Positions 9,956 through 32,703 of a stretch of 36,622 nt of DNA are shown here, one piece after another (the first letter of the stretch is position 1; every line of letters starts with the position of its first letter). A model generated the notes under the pieces. The model ran no database searches and was not told the origin of the DNA. It saw only the letters and a list, made by a program, of their open reading frames with translations. The translations under genes were made by a program, and so were the position numbers. Source of the stretch: a virus. The DNA lies in IMG/VR virus record IMGVR_UViG_3300010391_000161, positions 1-36,622 of that record. One strand, given 5' to 3'.

Positions 9956-10537
9956 GTGGGCAGGCCGCTCAAAAAACGCAAGGTCGTGACCGCACCATTG
10001 GCGCCCGAGCACCCGTGGGAGCGACAGCCCTCGGAGTCCGACACGGCCTGGGGGGCGTTTGTGACATACCGCGACCTCGGGCCCGACGAGCGCCCTCTCG
10101 CGAAGCTCGTGCAGAAGTACGCCAAGGGCAGGGCCAACTTCACGCGCTGGTCGTCGGCGTGGGACTGGGTCGCGCGCTGTGCGGTCTACGACGCTTGGGT
10201 CGACCGACAAGCGAGGCTCGCGAACATCGCCGCGATTAAGGACATGAAGGCGCGACACAGGCAGATCGCGATGTCCGCCGAGGGGGCCGGCGCCCTCGCG
10301 CTCAACAAGGTTATCGCCGCCGAGCGCAGCGGCACGACGCTGACTCTCAAGCCGTCCGAGATCAAGGACCTCCTCGAATTCGGCACGAAGCTCGAGAGGC
10401 TTACGCTCGGCGAGCCCGGCGAAATCGAGCGCGTCAGCGTCGAGGCCGCGCCCGTTGTTCACGACTACAGCGCCCTTAGCACGGAAGAGCTCTTGCAGCT
10501 CGGCGCGCTGACGCGCAAAGCGCGCGGCGACGCTTGA
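9956..10537 (+). CDS. terS: terminase small subunit
   Basis: 193 aa. It recognises phage DNA for packaging and recruits TerL. The N-terminus is basic (RPLKKRKVV). The central part (YAKGRANFTRWSSAWDWVARCAVYDAW) looks like the helix-turn-helix plus following helix seen in phage TerS-like proteins, and the rest is helical, suited to oligomer formation. The GTG start follows AAGGAT. The gene ends by overlapping the ATG of TerL (TGATG). The call combines weak family similarity with strong position evidence. Confidence 0.7.
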   Translation: MGRPLKKRKVVTAPLAPEHPWERQPSESDTAWGAFVTYRDLGPDERPLAKLVQKYAKGRANFTRWSSAWDWVARCAVYDAWVDRQARLANIAAIKDMKARHRQIAMSAEGAGALALNKVIAAERSGTTLTLKPSEIKDLLEFGTKLERLTLGEPGEIERVSVEAAPVVHDYSALSTEELLQLGALTRKARGDA

Positions 10538-13167
10538 TGAGCGCGCCGACCGCGCGGCGCAAGGGACCGCACCACAAGCAGAAGCTCGATGTGGTCGACT
10601 TGCGCGCCGTCGATCGCGAGATCTGCCTTCGTCAGTTCCGCAGGTTCGTGCCCGATGCCTTCGAGGTCGTGGAGGGCGGAGACGCCCACTTCTCGCTCGT
10701 GCGCGCCGGTAAGCGCTCGCCGAAGTTCATTGGCGGTTGGCACATCGACGCCATCGCCGATCACCTGCAAGCGGTTGCCGAGGATCAGATCAAACGACTC
10801 TTGATCAACGTGCCGCCGGGTACGTCCAAGAGCATTTTGGCTTGCGTGCTGTGGCCAGCATGGTTGTGGGCGCGCGATCCATCGCTCCGCTTCTTGTTCA
10901 GCAGCTACAGCGAAGATTTCACCAAGCGCGATTGCCGCCGCACGAAGGCCCTGATCGAGAGCGATTGGTATCGAAGCTTGTTCCCGGAGGTGAAACTCAA
11001 GCGCGACCCCGATACCGTGATGGAGCATCACACGACCGCCGAGGGCGAGCGGCACGGAGCCTCGACCGGCAGCGGTGTCACCGGCAAGCATGTACATTGT
11101 TTGCCGGCAGGGGTAAGAGTGCGTACGGAGCTCGGCGATTTAGACATCGCCGAGCTCGTGGCGATGCGCGAGCGCCCTCGTGTGTTGTCGATGAACCATC
11201 GAACGGGAAAGCTGGAGTGGCGACGTGTACAGGCCGTCAACGAGAGTCGAACGAACGAGCTTTTCGAGATCCGAACAGGTGGTGGCCGTTCGTTGCGGGC
11301 TACCGGGGAGCATCCCCTCTTCGTTCGTCAGCGGGGATACAGGCAGGCGCGTGATCTTGCCGACGGTGAAGCGCTGCTCGCCGTCGGGGAAGTGCCAGGC
11401 ATGCGGCACCAAGACCGACAGGCAGAGCGTTGTGTGCAAAACCTGTTACGGCAGGGCGAGAAAAGTCGTGCTCGAGATCGCGTGCTTTGCATGCGACAGG
11501 CGATTCGCGAAGCCGTTGTACGAGTACGAGAAGGCGCTGCGGCGAAAGCCCGACTCGCGCTTCTTCTGCTCGCGCGCGTGTTCGACAAGGCCAGGCGCGC
11601 GTGGCTACGTGAACGCCGTTTCGCGCAATTGCTTGATGTGCAGGACACCTGTGCCTTCGCGCCCGCGTCGGAGGTATTGCGGGGAGGCGTGCCGCCTTGC
11701 GGCGAGGGCCTCGCGGAGAAAGATCAAGGCGCGCAAGTGCGCGGCGTGCGCGGCGACGTTTCGGCCGAAGAGTTCTCGTCAGCGTTTTTGCGGGAAGGCG
11801 TGCGCGAACAGGGATCACGCGACGCGAATGATCGGGAGGGGCAACTCGCACTACAGGGACGGGAAGAGCTATGCCCTCTGGTTCGACCTGATGCGCGAGC
11901 CGATTCTCGAGCGCGACAGTGGCTGCGTCGCCTGTGGGACGACGACCGGCAGGATTGTGATCCATCACATCGACGAGGACGTGGCGAACAACACGCCGGA
12001 GAACCTCGTGGCGCTCTGCGCGCGCTGTCACCTCCGACATCACAAATCGAGGTGGACGCCGTTTCCGTGGTTGAGCGATCGCGCTGTAACAGCGTCGCGG
12101 TCTATGACCTCCAGGTGGAGGGAAACCACAACTTCTTTGCGAACGAGATTCTCGTCCACAACTGCATAGTCGAGGACGATCCTCTAAAAGCTCAGGACGC
12201 TCGCAGCCCACGCGCTCGCGAGGAGGTATGGGACTACCGCACGCAGACGCTCGGCTTTCGCCTCTTGCCCGAAGCGGGCTGGCGTATCGTGATCATGCAA
12301 CGCCTGCACGAGGACGATCCGAGCGGCCGCATCCTCGCGCGCGCCGGCAAGGACCGCGAGGAGGATCCCGACGAGTATGTCCACCTGTGCCTGCCGATGG
12401 AGTATGAACCACAGCGGCGCTGCACGACGGCGCTCTTCGCTGACCCGCGCAAGGAAGAGGGCGAGCTGCTTTGGCCACAGCGCATGAACCGCAGGTTTGT
12501 TGACGCGCTCAAAAGCCCGCAGGGTCTCGGAGAGTACGGCTTCGCGGGCCAGGCGCAACAGCGCCCCGCGCCAGCCGAGGGCGGCGTGATCAAGCGCGCT
12601 TGGTGGCGCTACTGGGAGACGATGCCGACCGAGCTCGACAAGGTGATCGTCTCGTGGGATCTGACGTTCAAGCACACCGGCTCGAGCTGGGTCGTCGGGC
12701 AGGTATGGGGCAAGAAGGGGCCGGACGCCTTTCTGCTTGATCAGGTGCGCGACAAGATGGACTTCCCGGCGCAGCTCGCCGCCATCCGGGCGCTCGCTAC
12801 GAAGTGGCCCGAGACGAAGGAGAAGCTGATCGAGGATGCGGCGAACGGCGCGGCCGTGATAAGCGTTCTCAGGAAGGAGATCCCCGGTGTCATACCGATA
12901 CCTCCGAGAGGCTCGAAAGAAGCTCGGCTCGCCGCCGTCGCGGTGTTCGTCGAAGCCGGCAACGTGTATTTGCCGCACCCGAGGATTGCTCCCTGGATCG
13001 ACGGGCTGGTAGAGGAGGTCACGATGTTCCCGAACGGCTCGAACGACGATCAGGCCGACTGTGCATCACAGGCGCTTTCGCGGCTGTTCGCGTCGGGCCC
13101 GAAGAAGCTCACGCAAGCCTTTAACCTCGCGGGCGCCGGCGAGAGGCCGAGCCCGTGGAATCAGTGA
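10537..13167 (+). CDS. terL: terminase large subunit with intein
   Basis: 876 aa before splicing, 521 after. It is the ATP-driven DNA packaging motor and nuclease. The ATPase Walker A is PPGTSKS (93-99). Walker B is IVEDD (544-548), immediately after the intein, which spans residues 188-542, so splicing is needed to join the ATPase. The C-terminal RNase-H-like nuclease has the expected acidic residues: Asp708 in SWDLTF, Asp767 in IEDAANG and the NDDQAD group (837-841). ATG 10537 overlaps the TerS stop; a TTG one codon upstream is less likely. The intein's middle third is translated in a frame that is not the coding frame of the DNA (see the nested HNH gene), giving an Arg-rich filler. Confidence 0.92.
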   Translation: MSAPTARRKGPHHKQKLDVVDLRAVDREICLRQFRRFVPDAFEVVEGGDAHFSLVRAGKRSPKFIGGWHIDAIADHLQAVAEDQIKRLLINVPPGTSKSILACVLWPAWLWARDPSLRFLFSSYSEDFTKRDCRRTKALIESDWYRSLFPEVKLKRDPDTVMEHHTTAEGERHGASTGSGVTGKHVHCLPAGVRVRTELGDLDIAELVAMRERPRVLSMNHRTGKLEWRRVQAVNESRTNELFEIRTGGGRSLRATGEHPLFVRQRGYRQARDLADGEALLAVGEVPGMRHQDRQAERCVQNLLRQGEKSRARDRVLCMRQAIREAVVRVREGAAAKARLALLLLARVFDKARRAWLRERRFAQLLDVQDTCAFAPASEVLRGGVPPCGEGLAEKDQGAQVRGVRGDVSAEEFSSAFLREGVREQGSRDANDREGQLALQGREELCPLVRPDARADSRARQWLRRLWDDDRQDCDPSHRRGRGEQHAGEPRGALRALSPPTSQIEVDAVSVVERSRCNSVAVYDLQVEGNHNFFANEILVHNCIVEDDPLKAQDARSPRAREEVWDYRTQTLGFRLLPEAGWRIVIMQRLHEDDPSGRILARAGKDREEDPDEYVHLCLPMEYEPQRRCTTALFADPRKEEGELLWPQRMNRRFVDALKSPQGLGEYGFAGQAQQRPAPAEGGVIKRAWWRYWETMPTELDKVIVSWDLTFKHTGSSWVVGQVWGKKGPDAFLLDQVRDKMDFPAQLAAIRALATKWPETKEKLIEDAANGAAVISVLRKEIPGVIPIPPRGSKEARLAAVAVFVEAGNVYLPHPRIAPWIDGLVEEVTMFPNGSNDDQADCASQALSRLFASGPKKLTQAFNLAGAGERPSPWNQ
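11098..12162 (+). mobile_element. TerL intein (355 aa in the TerL frame)
   Basis: A Cys1-type intein between GKHVH and CIVEDD of TerL. The N-terminal splicing block starts CLPAGVRVRTELGDLDIAEL; block B is RSLRATGEHPLFV; the C-terminal block is VYDLQVEGNHNFFANEILV ending His-Asn, followed by Cys+1. These are the standard nucleophiles for class 1 splicing. From about 11390 to 12050 the TerL frame has no stop but shows shadow composition: in a 58-codon sample near 11880-12050 only about 45% of codons end in G/C, against about 84% in the +1 frame, where an HNH endonuclease is encoded. Confidence 0.92.
11366..12169 (+). CDS. HNH homing endonuclease nested in the TerL intein, +1 frame
   Basis: Up to 267 aa from a GTG at 11366; an earlier GTG at 11225 would add shadow sequence. 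Residues 4-27 hold CxxC pairs (KCQACG, VCKTCY), followed by at least four more Cys-pair units of the type FCSRAC, CLMC, YCGEAC, CAAC and FCGKAC. Next comes GNSHYRDGKSYALW and a canonical HNH core: CVACG, His200-His201, Asn213, then CARCH with His222, and His225-His226. Codon third positions support this frame. No clear Shine-Dalgarno sequence was seen. The frame runs on to a TAG seven bases past the intein end, so its last 35 residues are antiphase to the splicing block. It is either a nested gene or a shifted intein nuclease domain. Confidence 0.8.
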   Translation: MKRCSPSGKCQACGTKTDRQSVVCKTCYGRARKVVLEIACFACDRRFAKPLYEYEKALRRKPDSRFFCSRACSTRPGARGYVNAVSRNCLMCRTPVPSRPRRRYCGEACRLAARASRRKIKARKCAACAATFRPKSSRQRFCGKACANRDHATRMIGRGNSHYRDGKSYALWFDLMREPILERDSGCVACGTTTGRIVIHHIDEDVANNTPENLVALCARCHLRHHKSRWTPFPWLSDRAVTASRSMTSRWRETTTSLRTRFSSTTA

Positions 13168-13358
13168 GACGATCCCCGATCGATGAGCTGCTCGATCAGC
13201 TTCGCGGCAAGCCTGTGATGCCGCGCGAGTGCTGGTTCGCGCTGTCGCCGCGTCAAGCTGAGAAGGTCGAGCGCAGAGCAGAGGCGCGGAGCATCACGCT
13301 GCTCGAGGCGTTCCGCGAGTTGCTGGCAGAAGACCTCTGCGTTGCTGGGAGGGCCTGA
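13155..13358 (+). CDS. small hypothetical protein between TerL and portal
   Basis: About 67 aa, mostly helical. It overlaps the TerL end. A GTG at 13155 (AGAGG upstream) or at 13164 (GTGA overlap with the TerL stop) could start it. The content (SPIDELLDQLRGKP, then LSPRQAEKVERRAEARSI) resembles small ribbon-helix-helix-like or adaptor proteins but is not assignable. The portal ATG follows three bases after its stop, so it is probably co-translated with the packaging genes. Confidence 0.55.
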   Translation: MESVRRSPIDELLDQLRGKPVMPRECWFALSPRQAEKVERRAEARSITLLEAFRELLAEDLCVAGRA

Positions 13359-13361
13359 CGC

Positions 13362-15785
13362 ATGGCCAAGGCCGCGTTCACCAAGTCGTTGCAGCTAGAC
13401 CTCGGGGTCCAGGGCTCGACGGGCCTCAAGCAGTACGGCGGTTGGATCTTCGAGGAGTTTCTGCCGCGGCTCCAGGGGCGCACGGGCGTCCTGACCTACC
13501 GCGAGATGATCGACAACAGCTCGACCATCGGCGCGATCCGCTACACGATCCGCAGCCTCATTCTCCAAGCCGAGTGGCGCGTCGAGCCGGCTGGCGACAC
13601 GCCGGAAGCGCGCGAATGGGCTGAGTTCGTTGAGGGCTGCCTCGACGACATGAGCCATACCTTCGAGGATTTTCTGAGCGAGCTCCTCTCGCACCTCGAC
13701 TATGGCTGGGCCTATCACGAGCTCGTCTACAAGATCCGTCGTGGGCCCGAGGCGACGAACCCCAGCTACCGCTCGAAGCACGACGACGGGAAGGTCGGCT
13801 GGCGCAAGATCCCCATTCGCTCGCAGGACACGCTCGACCGCTGGGAGTTCGAGCCCAGCGACAACGGCGTTCGCGGCATGTGGCAGTTCGATCCCTACTC
13901 GCCGAAGGGCAGCCAGCTCTTCATCCCCATTGAGAAGGCGTTGCTCTTCCGCACCTCGGGGAACAAGGGCAATCCAGAGGGCCGCGCTTTGACGCTGGAT
14001 ACGTCGGTGCCGACGCCCGATGGCTGGACCACGATGGGCGCGATCGAGGTGGGCGATAAGGTCTATGACGAGCGTGGACGGATTCGGTACGTCACCGCGA
14101 AGACAGAAGTGTTCCGCGATAGGCCCGTTTACGAGATCGAGTTCAAGGATGGTTCCGCGGTGCGAGCGGACACGAACCACCTATGGAGCGTGACGGACTA
14201 CAACGATCGAACCCTCGGCCGCGAGCCGCGAACGATCAGCACCGAAGAGTTGTTCGCCAAGAGCCAGAAGTCGACTGACCTGATCTTCTCGTGCGGCCGG
14301 GCGCCGGTGTTGGATGCTCCGAATCAGCCGCTGCCCGTCGATCCCTACCTGCTGGGTTATTGGCTCGGCGATGGCGCGATCGGGACGGCGACGTTCTCCG
14401 TATGCGACGAAGATCTGCCAAGTCTGCTGGAGCAGATCAGCGCGGCGGGCCACGAGCCTGGCGCGAGGAACGGCAACAACATCAGTGTGCCAGGTGTGTT
14501 CCGCGAGGCGCTGAAAGTCGCGGGCGTCTACCGCAACAAGCACATCCCGGCGACTTATCTGCGGGCGTCGTCTGAGCAAAGGCTCGCGCTGTTGCAAGGG
14601 CTGATGGATTCGGACGGGTTCACGCCGGCGAAGGATGCCAAGGATGTCGCAAGCGTGTTCCACAACACGGATCTGAATTTGATCCACGGGGTCGCCGAAC
14701 TCGTGCGGACGCTCGGGGGACGGCCGAAGGTCAAACTCCGCCAGCGGGCTGGCCGGCTCGGCGGCGAGCTATTCGGAAGACAGATCGTCGGCAGGCGCGA
14801 CCTGTGGGAGGTCCGGTTTTCGCTTGATCTCCCGACCCATCGACTCCCGCGGAAGCGCGAGCGGCAGAAGCTCGTCTCCGAATGCGATCGGGAGGTCGCG
14901 CTCAGCCATCACGTCATTCGCAACATTCGCCGGGTCGAGAACGCGGACACGGTATGCATCGAGGTCGACGCACCTTCACACCTGTTCCTCGCGGGCGATA
15001 GCATGGTGCCGACGCACAACTCTATCTACCGCAACGCCGTGCTCGATTATTTCAAGTTCAAGCGGATCACCGACATCGAGGCGGTCGGCATCGAGCGCGA
15101 CATGACGGGCTTGCTCCACATGCAGGTGCCGATCGAGATCCTCCAGGCGGCGCCGGGCTCGATCGAGATGACCATACGCAGCGAGCTCGAGCGTATGCTC
15201 GGCTCGCTCAAGCGCGACGAGCGCGAGTTCGCCATGACGCCGCCCGAGCTCAACGAGGAGGGCATGCCGACGGGCTTCAAGCTCGGGCTGCTCGCCACCG
15301 GCGGCCGGCGCCAGATCGATACCAACGACATCGCGCTGCGCTACATGAACAGCATGACCATGTCGACGCTTGCCGACTTCCTCATGCTCGGCAAGAACGA
15401 TGTCGGAAGCTGGGCGCTGGCGTCCAGCAAGACGCGCCTCTTTTCGTTTGCGCTTGGCGCCATCATGGACGCCGTTGCGGCCGTGTTCAATCGCTTCGCC
15501 ATCCCGCGACTGATGGCGCTTAACAGCGTGCCGGTCGACCTTCACCCGCACCTCGTGCACGGCGACATCGAGTCACCGCCGCTCGACGAGATCGGCAACT
15601 ACATCACCTCGCTCGCCACCGCTGGGCTGCTCACGCCGACCAAGCCGCTCGAGCGCAAGCTGCTCGAGTTCGGCAGGCTGCCGGCGCCGCCCGTCGACGA
15701 AGAGGACAAGCCACTGCCAGGCGAAGGCGCTCGGATCGCGCCCGAGCAACTGCTGCTCCCGCTCGCGCAGCCTGGGGTCGGGTAG
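13362..15785 (+). CDS. portal protein (Mu gp29/DUF935-like) with intein
   Basis: 807 aa before splicing, 462 after. It forms the dodecameric ring through which DNA enters the head. The N-terminal extein (LTYREMIDNSSTIGAIRY, LDYGWAYHELVY, RSQDTLDRWEFE) and the C-terminal extein (ITDIEAVGIERDMTGLLHM, LADFLMLGKN) fit the DUF935/Mu gp29 portal family. The intein covers residues 209-553, between NPEGR and SIYRNA, a conserved portal segment. Start ATG 13362 follows GGGAGG. The gene lies between TerL and the MuF-like protein, as is usual. Confidence 0.9.
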   Translation: MAKAAFTKSLQLDLGVQGSTGLKQYGGWIFEEFLPRLQGRTGVLTYREMIDNSSTIGAIRYTIRSLILQAEWRVEPAGDTPEAREWAEFVEGCLDDMSHTFEDFLSELLSHLDYGWAYHELVYKIRRGPEATNPSYRSKHDDGKVGWRKIPIRSQDTLDRWEFEPSDNGVRGMWQFDPYSPKGSQLFIPIEKALLFRTSGNKGNPEGRALTLDTSVPTPDGWTTMGAIEVGDKVYDERGRIRYVTAKTEVFRDRPVYEIEFKDGSAVRADTNHLWSVTDYNDRTLGREPRTISTEELFAKSQKSTDLIFSCGRAPVLDAPNQPLPVDPYLLGYWLGDGAIGTATFSVCDEDLPSLLEQISAAGHEPGARNGNNISVPGVFREALKVAGVYRNKHIPATYLRASSEQRLALLQGLMDSDGFTPAKDAKDVASVFHNTDLNLIHGVAELVRTLGGRPKVKLRQRAGRLGGELFGRQIVGRRDLWEVRFSLDLPTHRLPRKRERQKLVSECDREVALSHHVIRNIRRVENADTVCIEVDAPSHLFLAGDSMVPTHNSIYRNAVLDYFKFKRITDIEAVGIERDMTGLLHMQVPIEILQAAPGSIEMTIRSELERMLGSLKRDEREFAMTPPELNEEGMPTGFKLGLLATGGRRQIDTNDIALRYMNSMTMSTLADFLMLGKNDVGSWALASSKTRLFSFALGAIMDAVAAVFNRFAIPRLMALNSVPVDLHPHLVHGDIESPPLDEIGNYITSLATAGLLTPTKPLERKLLEFGRLPAPPVDEEDKPLPGEGARIAPEQLLLPLAQPGVG
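13986..15020 (+). mobile_element. portal intein, class 3 with in-frame LAGLIDADG endonuclease
   Basis: 345 aa starting at an alanine (ALTLDTSVPTPDGW) and ending VPTHN before Ser+1. The lack of a residue-1 nucleophile plus Trp275 after the block-B His273, Cys532 in VCIEVD and Thr551 in PTHN gives the Trp-Cys-Thr set that defines class 3 inteins. Two LAGLIDADG helices are in frame: LLGYWLGDG (330-338) and LLQGLMDSDGF (410-420), so this is a complete, conventional homing intein. Third codon positions are noticeably less GC-rich than in the portal itself, consistent with separate origin. Confidence 0.92.
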
Positions 15786-17492
15786 ATGCCTCTCGTGCTC
15801 GTCAGCAAGGCGAAGCGCGCCCCAGCTCCTCACGCGCTGGCCGCCGAGTATGAACCGGCGACGCGCAACGTGCGCCAGTTCGCCCGCGCCGCAGCCTCGG
15901 CGTTGCGCGCTGCTTCGGCGCAAGCAGGCTCGGACGAGCTTCTTCGTCTGGTCGCAGCGCAGGCTCCGATCGACCAGATCCTCGCTGCGATGAAGCTCGA
16001 TTCAGGCTCCGAGCTGCTTGTGCCGGCGTACGAGCGCGTGCTTCAGACCACCATCGAGATCGAGAAGAAGCGCAAGCGCAGCGTGCCGACCGTGCGGGTC
16101 AACCCGCGCTCGATCGAGTGGGCGCGCGAGCGCGGAGCCAAGCTCGTGCAAGGCGTCAGCGCCCAGACGCGCACCGCGATCCGCAACGTCGTGGCTCGCC
16201 AAGTGGCGCGGGGCGAGCGAGCCGAGTCCATGGTGCGCGGCATCATGCGGGTCGTCGGTCTCTTGCCGCGCGACGAGGCTGCGGTGGCGACCCGGCGCAT
16301 TCTTCTGCTCGAGCGCGGCGAGGACATCGAGCGCGCCGAGCGCCTGTCCGACAAGTACGCCGACGAGCTGCTCGAGGCTCGCGCGATGCGCATCGCGCGC
16401 ACCGAGACCGTCGCGGCCCAGAACCGCGGGCTGCTCGACACCTGGCAGGACGCCTTCGAGTCCGGGGCGCTGCCCGATACGGTCGTGCGCGTGTGGGTAT
16501 CGGCACCTCCGAGCGAGAACCCGGGGCGCCCGTGCCCCATCTGTCTCGAGCTTGATGGCACCGAGGCGCCAATGGGCCAGTCCTTCGAGTCGGCACTGCT
16601 CGACGAAAGCGTCCTGACCCCACCGGCGCATCCAAACTGCTTACCTGGGGATGCGGCAGTAGCAGCCGAGAGCATCGCGGCCGCGAGCGTACGGCGATAT
16701 GATGGAGATCTCGTCGTTATCCGCACGGCCGCAGGTCACCGTCTCGCCTGCACCCCGAACCATCCGATACTCGGGACTGGCGGCTGGCTTCCTGCGCGCT
16801 CGTTCCACATAGGAGACCACGTAGTCGGCGCTCGCCTCGGTGAGCGGATGCCTTCGCTCATCGACCCAGATCATGAGCACCGACCAGCCGCGATCGAGCA
16901 GGTAGCGCGTGCGCTCGAGGAGTCGCGCGTGGCGACGGCCCTGCCAGTGCCAATTTCCTCCGAGGACTTCCATGGCGACGGGAAAGGCTCCGAGGTCGCA
17001 GTTGTATGGGCCGATGGCTTGTTGAGGCAAGACCTCGAGTCCGCGATCAGCCAACATGCGAGCCAGCTTGATCTCGCTTCGAGAAGCGCCGAGCAGCCTC
17101 GACTGCCGCGTGATCGCCGCCTGCTCGAGCACTCGGCGCGAGACGCGCATCCCGCGCCGAGCTTCATGGGCACTCTTTGTGAGCGCCACGCGCTGCTCTG
17201 GACTCAGGCGCAGCATGCGAAGGCGATTCGCCTCGCTCAGACCGCGTGGCTTGACGCCGGCGGCAAGAAGTCGAGTGCGCACCCCGCCCCGAGCGATGTG
17301 GAAGGATTCGCTCAGCGACTTCTCCGACGCACCAGCCAGATACAGGCGCACAAGATCATCGACGTCCACGTCCAATCGTTTAGCAACCACGTGTTCAACC
17401 TCGAGACGGCGGTCGGCGCCTACATAGCACAGGGCCTCGTGACCCACAACTGCCGCTGCACGATGACGCTGCGAAGAGAGAGCGCGTCATGA
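15786..17492 (+). CDS. MuF/SPP1 gp7-like head morphogenesis protein with intein
   Basis: 568 aa before splicing, 297 after. It is a minor head protein that binds the portal and helps assembly and DNA ejection. The extein has the family's signature: ARAMRIARTETVAAQN helix, then CPICLELDG and, at the end, the HPNCRC motif. The intein (residues 285-555) splits this motif exactly between Asn and Cys (HPN / CRC), so splicing restores the metal-binding-type signature. Start ATG directly follows the portal TAG. A Vsr-like endonuclease ORF lies on the opposite strand within the intein. In a 37-codon extein sample about 92% of third positions are G/C, against about 62-72% in the intein. Confidence 0.9.
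   Translation: MPLVLVSKAKRAPAPHALAAEYEPATRNVRQFARAAASALRAASAQAGSDELLRLVAAQAPIDQILAAMKLDSGSELLVPAYERVLQTTIEIEKKRKRSVPTVRVNPRSIEWARERGAKLVQGVSAQTRTAIRNVVARQVARGERAESMVRGIMRVVGLLPRDEAAVATRRILLLERGEDIERAERLSDKYADELLEARAMRIARTETVAAQNRGLLDTWQDAFESGALPDTVVRVWVSAPPSENPGRPCPICLELDGTEAPMGQSFESALLDESVLTPPAHPNCLPGDAAVAAESIAAASVRRYDGDLVVIRTAAGHRLACTPNHPILGTGGWLPARSFHIGDHVVGARLGERMPSLIDPDHEHRPAAIEQVARALEESRVATALPVPISSEDFHGDGKGSEVAVVWADGLLRQDLESAISQHASQLDLASRSAEQPRLPRDRRLLEHSARDAHPAPSFMGTLCERHALLWTQAQHAKAIRLAQTAWLDAGGKKSSAHPAPSDVEGFAQRLLRRTSQIQAHKIIDVHVQSFSNHVFNLETAVGAYIAQGLVTHNCRCTMTLRRESAS
16638..17450 (+). mobile_element. MuF intein/Hint element (271 aa)
   Basis: A Cys1 intein: the first residues are CLPGDAAVAAESIAAASV, block B is HRLACTPNHPIL (Thr-Pro-Asn-His), and the C-terminal block is VFNLETAVGAYIAQGLVTHN before Cys+1. 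No LAGLIDADG or HNH is in the sense frame. The middle (ISSEDFHGDGKGSEVAVVW) is protein-like and stop-free but not a nuclease I recognise. The opposite strand carries a homing-endonuclease-like ORF over the same bases with codons exactly facing codons. Sense and antisense third positions over 160 codons (16860-17339) are about 72% and 74% G/C, so composition does not decide which strand is under stronger selection. Confidence 0.88.
16641..17390 (-). CDS. Vsr-like (EDxHD) homing endonuclease, antisense inside the MuF intein
   Basis: 249 aa from a GTG with GAGGT eight bases upstream; the open frame reaches back to a GTG at 17447. N-terminal residues 9-50 (DVDDLVRLYLAGASEKSL onward) look like a helix-turn-helix, followed by a basic linker (SEANRLRMLRLSPEQRVAL). 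Residues 100-175 resemble the Vsr-fold nuclease family: Glu106 in SRSEIKLARML, Asp132 in IGPYNCDLG, Glu141 in PVAMEVLGGNWHW and His148. Its TAA lies on the second codon of the intein, so the gene is wholly inside the element. Antisense ORFs arise easily here by chance, so the case rests on the ordered motifs and not on length. Confidence 0.72.
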   Translation of the reverse strand: MVAKRLDVDVDDLVRLYLAGASEKSLSESFHIARGGVRTRLLAAGVKPRGLSEANRLRMLRLSPEQRVALTKSAHEARRGMRVSRRVLEQAAITRQSRLLGASRSEIKLARMLADRGLEVLPQQAIGPYNCDLGAFPVAMEVLGGNWHWQGRRHARLLERTRYLLDRGWSVLMIWVDERRHPLTEASADYVVSYVERARRKPAASPEYRMVRGAGETVTCGRADNDEISIISPYARGRDALGCYCRIPR

Positions 17493-17584
17493 TCGAGGCG
17501 CTCGCCGATCTGTTCTGGCAACCTCTCGAGGTGATAGGACTTCGTCGGCGGTCCGAAGGCTGGGCCGGAGGTGCGAAGCCGTGA
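17489..17584 (+). CDS. 31-aa coupled mini-ORF
   Basis: Starts with an ATG overlapping the MuF TGA (ATGA) and ends with a TGA overlapping the GTG of the 1255-aa fusion gene (GTGA). The peptide (MIEALADLFWQPLEVIGLRR onward) has an amphipathic, hydrophobic first half and a Gly/Arg-rich tail. Its clearest job is translational coupling across the gap; a peptide function is unproven. Confidence 0.5.
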   Translation: MIEALADLFWQPLEVIGLRRRSEGWAGGAKP

Positions 17585-20500
17585 ACAAGTCCGCGATGCA
17601 GCTCGACGAGGTTCTGACCTTGGCGGAGGGCAAACTGCCTGGCTGGGCGCTCGCGGTGCTCAAGGCCCGGACGCGCAAGGCGATCGACGAAGGCGACTCG
17701 TCCAAGAGTGGACAAGTTGTGTCCGATGGCCCGAACGGCGAGGCGTCGCGGCAGACCCAGAAGCGCGGCCTGATGATCGCGCTCATGCTACCGAAGGCCG
17801 TCGCGATCAAGCTCGCGCAAGAGGGCGGCGAGCTACCCGAGAAGATGCACTGCACGCTCGCCTATCCGGGCAAGGTCGAAGATCTCCCGGCCGATGCGCT
17901 CGAGCGCGCCAAGCGCGCCGTCGCGAAGGTGGCCGCGGAGTTTGCCCCGTTCGTCGCCATGATCGGCGGCGTAGGGCGCTTCAATGCTTCGCTCACCTCG
18001 GACGGCAAGGATGTGCTGCACGCTTCGCTCGACGCGCCGATCTTGCCAGCGCTCCAGCAGGCCATTGCCGCGGCGCTCGACGAAGAGAAGATGTCACCGA
18101 AGCGCGAGCACGGCTTCGACCCTCACGTCACGCTTTGCTATCAGGACAAGGGCACCAAGGCTGAGCTGCCACAGGTGCCGACCACGCCCGTGATCTTCGA
18201 GTCGTTGTCGATCGTCGCCGGCGATGAGCGGATCGCCGATGTGCCTCTCGCCGGCGTCCGCGTGTTCAAGTCCGAGCCGATTGCCAAGAAGTTGACCGAG
18301 GCACAGCGCGCAGAAGTCGAGCTCGAGACCGAGCGCATTCGCGAGCGCTGCAAGACGCCCGAGGCTCGGCAGCCTCATGCGTTCAAGGCCGCTGAGTGGA
18401 CGCATCCGAACGGCCACCCGCGCTGCGCAGTCTGCGGCGATGAGGAGCCTGTCGGCGGTCGCTGCGAAGGCTACGTGGAGAAGAGCGGCCCAACACCGGG
18501 CGACGCCCACGTCGACGGACCGCTGTGGGGGCCGGGCTACGACTCCGAGTACGTCGCTGAGATGATGGCCGAGATGCGCCGTCGCGACTTGACGCTTGAT
18601 CAGGCGAAAGCTCGCGCCAAATCTGAGCTGCGTGATGAGGGCGCAACCGTTGAAGAGGCAGCCGAGCTCGTCGCGAAAGCGCGGCCGCTGAGCCGCGAGT
18701 ATCTCGAAGAAGCGTGGACGCTGGCGCGCAAGGTTCTACCGCCTTGGGCCTGGGCTCAGATCCACCAGCAGGCGAGGCCGAAGGCGAGCGTGCGAGGCGC
18801 AGCTCGCGTGCGCGAGGAAGAGCCGACGCTGTTCGAGAAGATTGCCCTCACTGACATCCGGCCCGGCAAGCTGCGCGAGCTGCCCGACGATGAGGTGCGG
18901 CTTGCGTGGGCGCGACTGCACCAGTGGCATGCGAACGCCAAGCGCACCAAGCGCCCGATCGAGAACTTCGTCAATGCCGCGCTCTGGACGTTGGACGAGA
19001 TGGCCCGGCGCGGCATCGACGTCGAGCGCGATGACGAACTCGTGCGGGCGATCGAGGAGCTGCGCGGCAAGCGCGCGTCGGTCGACACCTTCGCCAAGCT
19101 CAACGCTCTTCCGCGCGACCTCGTAGTCGTGCGCGACTTCGTCTCGGTGGTCGGCTCGACGGCGAAGGGCGACCGCGAGTCCGAAGACCTCGACGTGTTG
19201 CTACGGGCTCCGTGGAACCGCGAGGCGGGGCACTTCGCCATCCAAGCGGAGAACATCTGGCTGCCTCTGCGCAACGCGCTAGACGCCGACAAAACCGACA
19301 AGCTGCACTGGATCGACAATCCGCAGGGCGCGCACGGCGACTTCATCCCGCTCTACGATCTCGTGCTGCGCCGCCGCGACAAGCTCGCCGCCGAGGTGAT
19401 CAAGAGCACGGAGGATGCGGGCGTGCTGCTCGACGACGCCATCGCCTTGAACGCGGCGCTCGTCAGCGGCGAGACGCCGATGACCGAAGAAGCGCACGCC
19501 AAGCTCGCCGTCCTCCTGGATACGGCGCGTCGCGAGCTCGGCGAACCAAACGAGAAGAGCGCTCCGCAAGTCGAGAAGATCGCGCTGGCCGACAAGGTCG
19601 AGCCGCCGATCGACAAGGTCGAGTCGCCGATCGAGCTGTCGATGGAAAAGGCTGCCGTCGAGCCAGAGGGGGTCGAGCCATCGGTGCCCAGCTCCGGTCC
19701 CGTGGGAGCAAAGGTGCTGTTCATCGGCTCGTCGCCGGATCCAGTCGAAGCTGCGCGCAAGGAGCCGTTCGTCGGCCAATCGGGCGAGACGCTCAACGAG
19801 CTGTACCTAGGTCCGCTCGGACTTTCTCGGTCCGAGATCGCCGCGACCAATGTGGTGCCCATGCCGCTTGCGGATGATGATGGGCGCCCGCGCGAGCCGA
19901 CGGACGAGGAGGTCAAGCGATGGCTTCCGTGGCTCGAGAGCGAGATCGAGCGGCTCCAGCCCAAGACGATCATCGCGCTCGGGAACGTCGCTAAGCGCGT
20001 GCTCGGCGATCGCGCCCAAGCTGCGCTGCCGCACCCGGCGGCCGTGCGACGCTTCGGCGATTCCGGTGAGGTGTCGCGCAAGCTGCGCAGGGTGCGCGAG
20101 CTGCTCGGTCAGCCGGCAGCGAAGATCGAGAAGCAACCGGAGTCCAGCGAGGGCGGCGAGGAGACCAGCGGCTTTGCAGCATTCCGCGCTTGGGAGCGCA
20201 CGTGGCAAGACCAGCTCCCGCTCTCTGGCAAGGGCAAGTTCGTCTACCAGCATCACTGGCGCGGGCTCGACGAGGACCAAGCGCGCTCGGCCGGCGACGA
20301 GCAGCTCTTGCAGACCGATCACAGCGTGCACGGCGATCTGCGGCTCGAGGGGCAGAACGGCGAGCTGTGGGGCTGGGCAGTATTCATCGGCAGCGCCGCC
20401 GACAACAAGCGCGTCGGCGGCGACAAGCTCTTCGCGATGAACGATGGCAAGCTTTCCGAGCAAGACAAGCTGCAAGCCTCAAACAAGCTGCCGCAGCCGA

Positions 20501-21348
20501 AGCCGTGGCTCGAAGTCGGCATCGGCAAGCCCATGGTGGTGGAGCCCGGTGGCGTCGGCTCGACGGCGAACAAGTGGTCCAAGCTCTTCGCGCTCGACAC
20601 CGGCACGTACCAGCTCGGCGTGGCGCGCCAGCACAGCGTCGAGATCTTCCTTGACGGGAAGCACCTCCGTGGGCGATACCTAGTACAGTTCGCGCCCATC
20701 GGTGACAAGCGAGTCTGGCTGATCGACAAGCCAGCCGATCAGAAACCGATGGCAGAGACGCGCGAGCTCGCCGATGTAATAGGCGAATTGAGGCGGAAGC
20801 GACAGCGGTACTTGTTCTGGGGGAAGCCCGGAGAAGCGCCGCAAAAGCTCGATGTTGCGACCGGCAAGGTCGTCAAGTCGGCAATCGTACCGTTGCTCAA
20901 GGAGCGAACGCTCGAGGACAAGCGGATCGTTTACGGCGTCGTCTTGGACCCCTACATCGTCGATGCCCACGAAGACTGGGTCTCGCCGAACATGGTCGAA
21001 GAGACAGCGCACGGATGGTTCAAGGGTTCTCGGCTCGTCACGCTTCACCCCAAGACGCACGCGGAAGCGCAGGCCGTTGAGAGCTCGATCGTCGAGTATC
21101 CTTCCCGGCGCGACTACGTGAACGCCAGGCTCGGCGAGCCGCATAGGGCGTGGCGCAGGAAGTTCGGCGAAGACGTCGTTCATTCCGGCGCTTGGATCCT
21201 GGGCGTGCAGCTCAGCCCGGAATTGTGGGAAGCATACAAGCGCGACGAGATCGCTGCGTTCAGCATCGAGGGCTTCGGCATCCGCACGCCGACGACAGTG
21301 AAAGCGATGCCGAACGTCACCTTCGTGGACCTCGTCAGCGCCAAGTAA
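17581..21348 (+). CDS. giant fusion: 2H phosphoesterase, nucleotidyltransferase, UDG-like, LigD-PE-like, XkdF-like head protease
   Basis: 1255 aa in a single open frame. Segments in order: a 2H phosphoesterase fold with His90-Cys-Thr92 and His182-Val-Thr184 about 90 residues apart; a cysteine-containing linker; a nucleotidyltransferase core with GSTAKGD (525-531) and Asp536/Asp538; a uracil-DNA-glycosylase-like domain about 711-845 (VLFIGSSPD, EPFVGQSGETLN, LPHPAAV) lacking iron-sulphur cysteines; a LigD 3'-phosphoesterase-like domain with His891/His892 and HGDLRLE (His917, Asp919, Arg921); and about 1110-1255 an XkdF-like phage protease (YGVVLDPYIVDAHEDWVSP, AFSIEGFG with Ser1228). The protease position before scaffold and capsid is classical for head maturation. 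The other parts may be packaged or cut free as DNA/RNA repair enzymes. Each domain call is from motifs. Confidence 0.75.
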   Translation: MNKSAMQLDEVLTLAEGKLPGWALAVLKARTRKAIDEGDSSKSGQVVSDGPNGEASRQTQKRGLMIALMLPKAVAIKLAQEGGELPEKMHCTLAYPGKVEDLPADALERAKRAVAKVAAEFAPFVAMIGGVGRFNASLTSDGKDVLHASLDAPILPALQQAIAAALDEEKMSPKREHGFDPHVTLCYQDKGTKAELPQVPTTPVIFESLSIVAGDERIADVPLAGVRVFKSEPIAKKLTEAQRAEVELETERIRERCKTPEARQPHAFKAAEWTHPNGHPRCAVCGDEEPVGGRCEGYVEKSGPTPGDAHVDGPLWGPGYDSEYVAEMMAEMRRRDLTLDQAKARAKSELRDEGATVEEAAELVAKARPLSREYLEEAWTLARKVLPPWAWAQIHQQARPKASVRGAARVREEEPTLFEKIALTDIRPGKLRELPDDEVRLAWARLHQWHANAKRTKRPIENFVNAALWTLDEMARRGIDVERDDELVRAIEELRGKRASVDTFAKLNALPRDLVVVRDFVSVVGSTAKGDRESEDLDVLLRAPWNREAGHFAIQAENIWLPLRNALDADKTDKLHWIDNPQGAHGDFIPLYDLVLRRRDKLAAEVIKSTEDAGVLLDDAIALNAALVSGETPMTEEAHAKLAVLLDTARRELGEPNEKSAPQVEKIALADKVEPPIDKVESPIELSMEKAAVEPEGVEPSVPSSGPVGAKVLFIGSSPDPVEAARKEPFVGQSGETLNELYLGPLGLSRSEIAATNVVPMPLADDDGRPREPTDEEVKRWLPWLESEIERLQPKTIIALGNVAKRVLGDRAQAALPHPAAVRRFGDSGEVSRKLRRVRELLGQPAAKIEKQPESSEGGEETSGFAAFRAWERTWQDQLPLSGKGKFVYQHHWRGLDEDQARSAGDEQLLQTDHSVHGDLRLEGQNGELWGWAVFIGSAADNKRVGGDKLFAMNDGKLSEQDKLQASNKLPQPKPWLEVGIGKPMVVEPGGVGSTANKWSKLFALDTGTYQLGVARQHSVEIFLDGKHLRGRYLVQFAPIGDKRVWLIDKPADQKPMAETRELADVIGELRRKRQRYLFWGKPGEAPQKLDVATGKVVKSAIVPLLKERTLEDKRIVYGVVLDPYIVDAHEDWVSPNMVEETAHGWFKGSRLVTLHPKTHAEAQAVESSIVEYPSRRDYVNARLGEPHRAWRRKFGEDVVHSGAWILGVQLSPELWEAYKRDEIAAFSIEGFGIRTPTTVKAMPNVTFVDLVSAK

Positions 21349-32172: not shown

Positions 32173-32703
32173 ATGGTTCGTCACTATGTCCCCAACGGCA
32201 AGCCGTTTGGTCCTAAGCCCCTCCCGCTAGAAGCTCGTTTCTGGCGCTTCGTGAAGAAGGCTGGTCCAAACGAATGTTGGCTATGGCAAGGCGCGCGTCG
32301 AGGCCCGGGCTACGGGCAGCTCCGAGTCGGAAGCCTTCGAGATGGCTCACGGGCTGTGAAGCCAGCGCACCGCATCGCGTATCAACTTGCTACCGGAGAG
32401 ACGATAAAGTCGAGCGATTTCGTCTGTCACTCGTGTGACAATCCGCCGTGCTGCAACCCACGCCACCTGATCCTGGCAAATGCCGCTTGGAACACCGCAG
32501 ATATGCTCCGCAAGGATCGGCACTGGGTGAGTTCAAAGATCGGCGAGCGAAACGGGCGTGCGCGTTTGACAGCTCGCGATGTTCTACGACTTCGAACACT
32601 TCGCAGGAAAGGATCGACCCTGGTCGAATTAGCTTCTACCTTTTCGATCTCTCCCTCTCATGCTTCCAGAATCGCGACGCGCATCGCATGGAGCCATCTC
32701 TAG
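32173..32703 (+). CDS. free-standing HNH homing endonuclease
   Basis: 176 aa. The order ECWLWQGARRGPGYGQL, AHRIAYQLATG, VCHSCDNPPCCNPRHL, NTADM is the HNH_3-type core, with catalytic His and zinc Cys. The C-terminus (LTARDVLRLRTLRRKGSTLV) looks like a helix-turn-helix that would fix DNA specificity. In its first 77 codons only about 57% of third positions are G/C, far below the neighbours, so it is a recent arrival. It lies between hub and spike genes without disturbing either, the typical location of an intergenic homing gene. Confidence 0.88.
   Translation: MVRHYVPNGKPFGPKPLPLEARFWRFVKKAGPNECWLWQGARRGPGYGQLRVGSLRDGSRAVKPAHRIAYQLATGETIKSSDFVCHSCDNPPCCNPRHLILANAAWNTADMLRKDRHWVSSKIGERNGRARLTARDVLRLRTLRRKGSTLVELASTFSISPSHASRIATRIAWSHL

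Follow-up and report, generated by a model that had tools for sequence, protein, structure and literature searches.

Large inteins of the canonical PI-SceI type combine a Hint splicing domain, the residues Cys1, Asn and Cys+1 and a presumed homing function with an endonuclease domain that is read in frame with the host protein. In fractured genes with split inteins, reportedly described by Dassa in 2009, the nuclease is said to be free-standing between the two split-intein halves, on DNA of its own. Group I introns can carry a homing gene antisense to the element, as the MuF intein described below does, and the L2066 rDNA introns are an example (PMC9548176); unlike that intein, however, they are RNA elements without a coding constraint from the host frame and without double coding. 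An out-of-frame HNH insertion in a methylase gene, without any splicing domain, has been described as the ShiLan element (PMC11855218). In connection with overlapping frames, the same paper refers to a preprint of 2025 that deals with non-canonical inteins of actinophages. Judged by its title and by this citation, the preprint probably covers part of the result presented here, perhaps the TerL or MuF cases of Gordonia phages. Among the papers searched we found no description of an intein with an antisense nuclease, with the reservation that the preprint may report some of the Gordonia cases, and it seems that the double-coded arrangement has previously been described only in part.

The window, that is, the whole stretch of DNA analysed here, is a complete IMG/VR virus record of 36.6 kb (IMGVR_UViG_3300010391_000161; 65% GC). 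An initial annotation had proposed that three adjacent packaging genes each hold an intein, with three nuclease families in three coding geometries, and both statements are borne out by splice junctions, domain matches and empty alleles. The terL gene (10534-13167, plus strand; phrog_38 9.5e-89, Terminase_6C 7e-14) consists of exteins at 10534-11097 and 12163-13167, separated by an intein of 355 aa at 11098-12162 that lies directly ahead of Walker B (GKHVH/CLPAG...LVHN/CIVEDD, with slashes at the splice junctions). Its Hint domain is recognised over the cut-off by the Pfam model Intein_splicing (PF14890; 1e-17), and the NCBIfam N- and C-terminal splicing models match as well. A putative HNH homing endonuclease ORF is placed at 11225-12169 on the plus strand, in the +1 frame of the intein (open from 11195 to 12169; zinc-finger/HNH part at about 11420-12130; PF01844 6e-5, phrog_1271 4e-20). 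The MuF (head morphogenesis) gene at 15786-17492 on the plus strand (Phage_Mu_F 2.9e-7) holds an intein of 271 aa at 16638-17450 (AHPN/CLPGD...VTHN/CRCTM, with TPNH in between). Here the Intein_splicing match of 5.7e-7 is below the cut-off of the model, and the Hint domain is recognised by matches within the family and by its predicted Hint ends. Both inteins carry the residues of class 1, namely Cys1, block B T..H, the C-terminal His-Asn and Cys+1. On the minus strand, codon-in-register with the MuF intein, a predicted Vsr/EDxHD-like nuclease of 249 aa spans 16641-17390, from a GTG at 17388-17390 to a TAA at 16641-16643; the gene most likely starts at 17390 and not at 17447.

Class 3 inteins follow a W-C-T motif rule. 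The portal gene (13362-15785, plus strand; Portal_Mu 1.5e-19, phrog_113 8e-54) is interrupted at 13986-15020 by an intein of 345 aa (NPEGR/ALTLD...PTHN/SIYRN) that has Ala1 and no Cys or Ser at that position, followed by NHLW, TVCIEVD and PTHN/S, and that contains a LAGLIDADG domain in frame (LAGLIDADG_3). Its best solved relatives are the class 3 DnaB inteins 6bs8 and 6rix (E 1e-23). Judged by its sequence it is an ordinary class 3 intein with LAGLIDADG in frame, and thus a variant of the PI-SceI kind, whereas in TerL and MuF the nuclease is a separate overlapping gene. A free-standing HNH gene that had been placed in the tail block is real as well (32173-32703; HNH_3 2e-6, zf-His_Me_endon). 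Just beyond MuF, a 1255-aa ORF at 17581-21348 fuses 2'-5' RNA ligase, uracil-DNA glycosylase superfamily and XkdF-like protease domains, and relatives in Gordonia phages have a large gene called 'RNA ligase' or 'head maturation protease' at the same place.

All three intein sites are empty in two viral contigs, L032 and L033, whose three exteins are 46-70% identical to those of the window. The uninterrupted sequences are GVTGKHVHCIVEDDP in TerL (the L033 allele joins GKHVH/CIVEDD), NPEGRSIYRN or NPEGRSILRT in portal and PPAHPGCRCTM in MuF, and therefore the inserts in the window are true insertions; for the empty alleles we relied solely on these two contigs, which were checked by hand. The same contigs bear on a further suggestion of the initial annotation, that homing cuts in the three inteins jointly carry the entire packaging module into competing phages. 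The spacing of the inteins, all within 6.4 kb, would suit such a drive, and several inteins occur together in a few other records (G016 and G017). However, most MuF-intein records show one intein by PF14890, although this model misses class 3 inteins such as that of portal and the counts per record are therefore minimal. Moreover, the closest relatives lack all three inteins, the inteins seem to be gained and lost separately, and no co-converted flank is visible, because the C-extein of TerL is nearer to that of the intein-less L032 (62%) than to that of the intein-bearing L005 (48-50%). A module-wide drive is thus unlikely. It may be fairly inferred that head assembly awaits three simultaneous splicing delays.

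The main finding of this study is that two of the three geometries are conserved double-coding designs, beyond mere variety: well over a hundred further phage sequences have the hidden-frame nuclease arrangement at the sites seen here. The TerL and MuF inteins are very probably double-coded mobile elements that keep their splicing domain and their homing endonuclease in different readings of the same DNA. The host strand and frame would encode the splicing domain, joined by a long and apparently unstructured linker, and the DNA of this linker (in MuF almost the entire intein) would encode a separate homing endonuclease in another reading, HNH in the +1 sense frame in TerL and Vsr/EDxHD-like in the codon-in-register antisense frame in MuF. 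Conservation shows that selection preserves the nuclease sequence, and the deficit of stops together with free-standing controls shows that it also holds the splicing frame stop-free, so that both proteins are probably made. The precursor would splice to mature MuF or TerL, the MuF nuclease may be made from an antisense transcript, and the nuclease would cut the empty allele, with repair copying the whole intein. The ShiLan element resembles the TerL and MuF inteins in its patchy distribution and in having its nuclease encoded in a different frame of an insertion that is itself in frame and free of stops. It differs in that it is not excised, is read from the sense strand and sits in another gene; in the TerL and MuF inteins the nuclease is enclosed by a complete splicing domain, and in MuF it is encoded on the antisense strand. 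Unlike in fractured genes, the host ORF is continuous in intact loci, with the MuF nuclease antisense inside a continuous intein.

In the window the antisense ORF matches PF18741 with 4e-5, under the cut-off, and the same model matches 34 of 48 nucleases of the family. The nuclease residues D132, E141, H148 and R160 are invariant, and E106 is nearly so. Structure prediction gave a model with a mean pLDDT of 90.9. Among solved structures it matches the homing endonuclease I-Bth0305I best (3r3p; E 1.4e-3, prob 1.00), a moderate fold match with a TM score of 0.62 by target length over about 100 residues. The antisense protein is accordingly modelled with both the fold and the residues of an EDxHD/Vsr-like nuclease of the I-Bth0305I kind, and it shares with these enzymes the association with phage inteins. 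Using tblastn we found matches in 128 phage records, with E values down to 1e-35. At the loci whose annotation was examined the nuclease lies within head-morphogenesis genes on the opposite strand, the sole exception being Acinetobacter phage BUCT629, where it is free-standing. Wherever the host gene at these loci is intact, the nuclease is codon-in-register with it, two frames are open and the other four contain stops (GC 0.41-0.68). Another 128 of 132 loci from viral contigs and genomes show the same in-register antisense geometry, and the design spans phages of many hosts (GC 0.39-0.71). Free-standing copies adjoin intein-less MuF genes at three loci (L030, which is BUCT629, L225 and L287) and possibly represent a stage preceding or following the association with an intein. 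In Escherichia phage BEU35 (L027) the MuF intein sits at RTSTTC and not at the usual HPN/C site of related Guernseyvirinae (as in L021, a Jerseyvirus), and its nuclease frame is broken by a stop within the matched region.

For the MuF host frame to stay open, the nuclease must avoid TTA, CTA and TCA. None of these codons was seen in the nucleases of 20 loci, where 77.5 were expected. When the count is extended to 153 loci, which form 118 clusters at 60% identity, 22 stops turn up in the splicing frame compared to 603 expected; the expected counts derive from local codon usage, and since the loci share ancestry the z-scores are overstated. As many as 148 of these loci are without any stop in the splicing frame, all 22 stops being confined to the other five. 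Three of the five are the free-standing copies, which have 15 stops versus about 12 expected, so that the constraint is evidently lost without a surrounding intein; the other two (L271 and L338) appear frameshifted or decayed.

It might be argued that the inteins no longer splice and that the nuclease is the sole live product, with the host ORF kept open for another reason such as the avoidance of polarity in the head operon or the tolerance of the insert as a loop. Elements of the ShiLan type do persist without a splicing domain (PMC11855218), but all 42 MuF host proteins compared, of which 41 are matched by Intein_splicing, share Cys1, the T and H of block B, the last Asn and Cys+1, and the MuF intein of the window, modelled in its own frame, has confident Hint ends that resemble solved inteins. 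Loss of splicing is therefore very unlikely. The same model leaves residues 127-218 with a pLDDT below 50, predicted to be disordered, and this speaks against the idea that the sense linker is a functional domain itself and the overlap a true compromise between two proteins. Part of the linker is conserved (FHGDG), but this part sits opposite the nuclease domain, and the sense linkers of TerL are hardly conserved. The substitutions point in the same direction. Between Fosterous and Vivi2 the nested part shows 24, 11 and 44 changes at nuclease positions 1, 2 and 3 (equal to 44, 11 and 24 at the host positions), whereas the exteins of the same MuF genes show 3, 3 and 32 changes at host positions 1, 2 and 3. 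Changes thus accumulate at host position 3 in the exteins and at nuclease position 3 in the intein, which means that at the intein the coding constraint passes to the opposite strand. In nine of nine close pairs the host frame has more amino-acid changes than the nuclease frame, about twofold in most of them and 97 to 68 in the most diverged one, and a functional linker is very improbable indeed.

Within the double-coded MuF inteins the nuclease has a start codon to itself and often a Shine-Dalgarno site as well, both supplied by the complement of splicing block F. The start codon lies opposite the histidine codon of this block (in GHVYNL or FHGxVYNL), and the two histidine codons, CAT and CAC, can only give ATG or GTG on the opposite strand. 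A start codon was found at this position in 106 of 122 loci. CAT is used for the block F histidine 96 times among the 122 loci, compared to 46.6 expected, and a Shine-Dalgarno core precedes the nuclease start in 55 of the 106 loci, compared to 18.1 expected (both by synonymous resampling of host codons; z-scores of about 10, inflated by shared ancestry). In the window a Shine-Dalgarno-like GAGGT is located at 17398-17402 on the minus strand, 7 nt before the GTG. The TAA of the same gene is the complement of the Leu2 codon of the intein, a rare TTA, and in many other loci the nuclease stop likewise lies opposite Leu2 of CLPGD. A search for a sigma-70-like promoter of the antisense gene found none.

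The TerL intein of the window has no host-frame stop compared to 6.7 expected, and over 21 loci there are 0 compared to 254.7 expected by synonymous resampling of the HNH codons. A TerL intein with a nested +1 HNH occurs at the same site in Gordonia phage Clown and Synechococcus phage S-EIVl, and the +1 geometry is present in 30 of 31 TerL relatives from viral contigs (GC 0.35-0.70). Similarity in the HNH frame exceeds that in the host frame in all 171 pairs (171/171; mean 347 versus 104). We also looked across the relatives for an internal start with a Shine-Dalgarno site for the HNH genes and found nothing conserved. That high GC and the genetic code by themselves account for the second open frame has next to no probability, and we rejected it: the in-register antisense phase is the cheapest one, with just three codons to avoid, and the window is rich in GC, but the pattern persists in loci of GC 0.39-0.50 whose remaining four frames contain many stops, the free-standing copies do have the stops, and TerL employs another phase.

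We consider it likely that a large and old class of phage inteins is double-coded by design in at least three phases (+1, +2 and antisense in register), and that in the MuF class the sense splicing motif also supplies the start codon of the nuclease, often with a Shine-Dalgarno site, so that the nuclease is expressed independently of the host gene and perhaps in opposition to it. Such an expression logic would be unusual for inteins: the nuclease need not fold as part of an essential late protein's precursor, and an antisense nuclease could be produced at a different time, from the other strand. Since standard annotation misses nucleases in hidden frames, many inteins that are called nuclease-less may carry one. 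With an in-register antisense overlap, an excess of start signals, free-standing copies as natural controls and over 100 lineages, this is an unusually clean case of natural double coding, and the MuF and TerL inteins should be of use in studying the origin and persistence of overlapping genes.

Some TerL genes are interrupted more than once or elsewhere. In three of them (L116, L119 and L165) Walker A and Walker B each hold an intein, and in L116 the one at Walker A contains LAGLIDADG in frame and the one at Walker B a +1 HNH. An intein at a third TerL site (L354; 1361-2203 within 3-2318, in the record of L279) has its HNH in the +2 frame (HNH_3 2.4e-14), and the same record also holds an antisense MuF nuclease.
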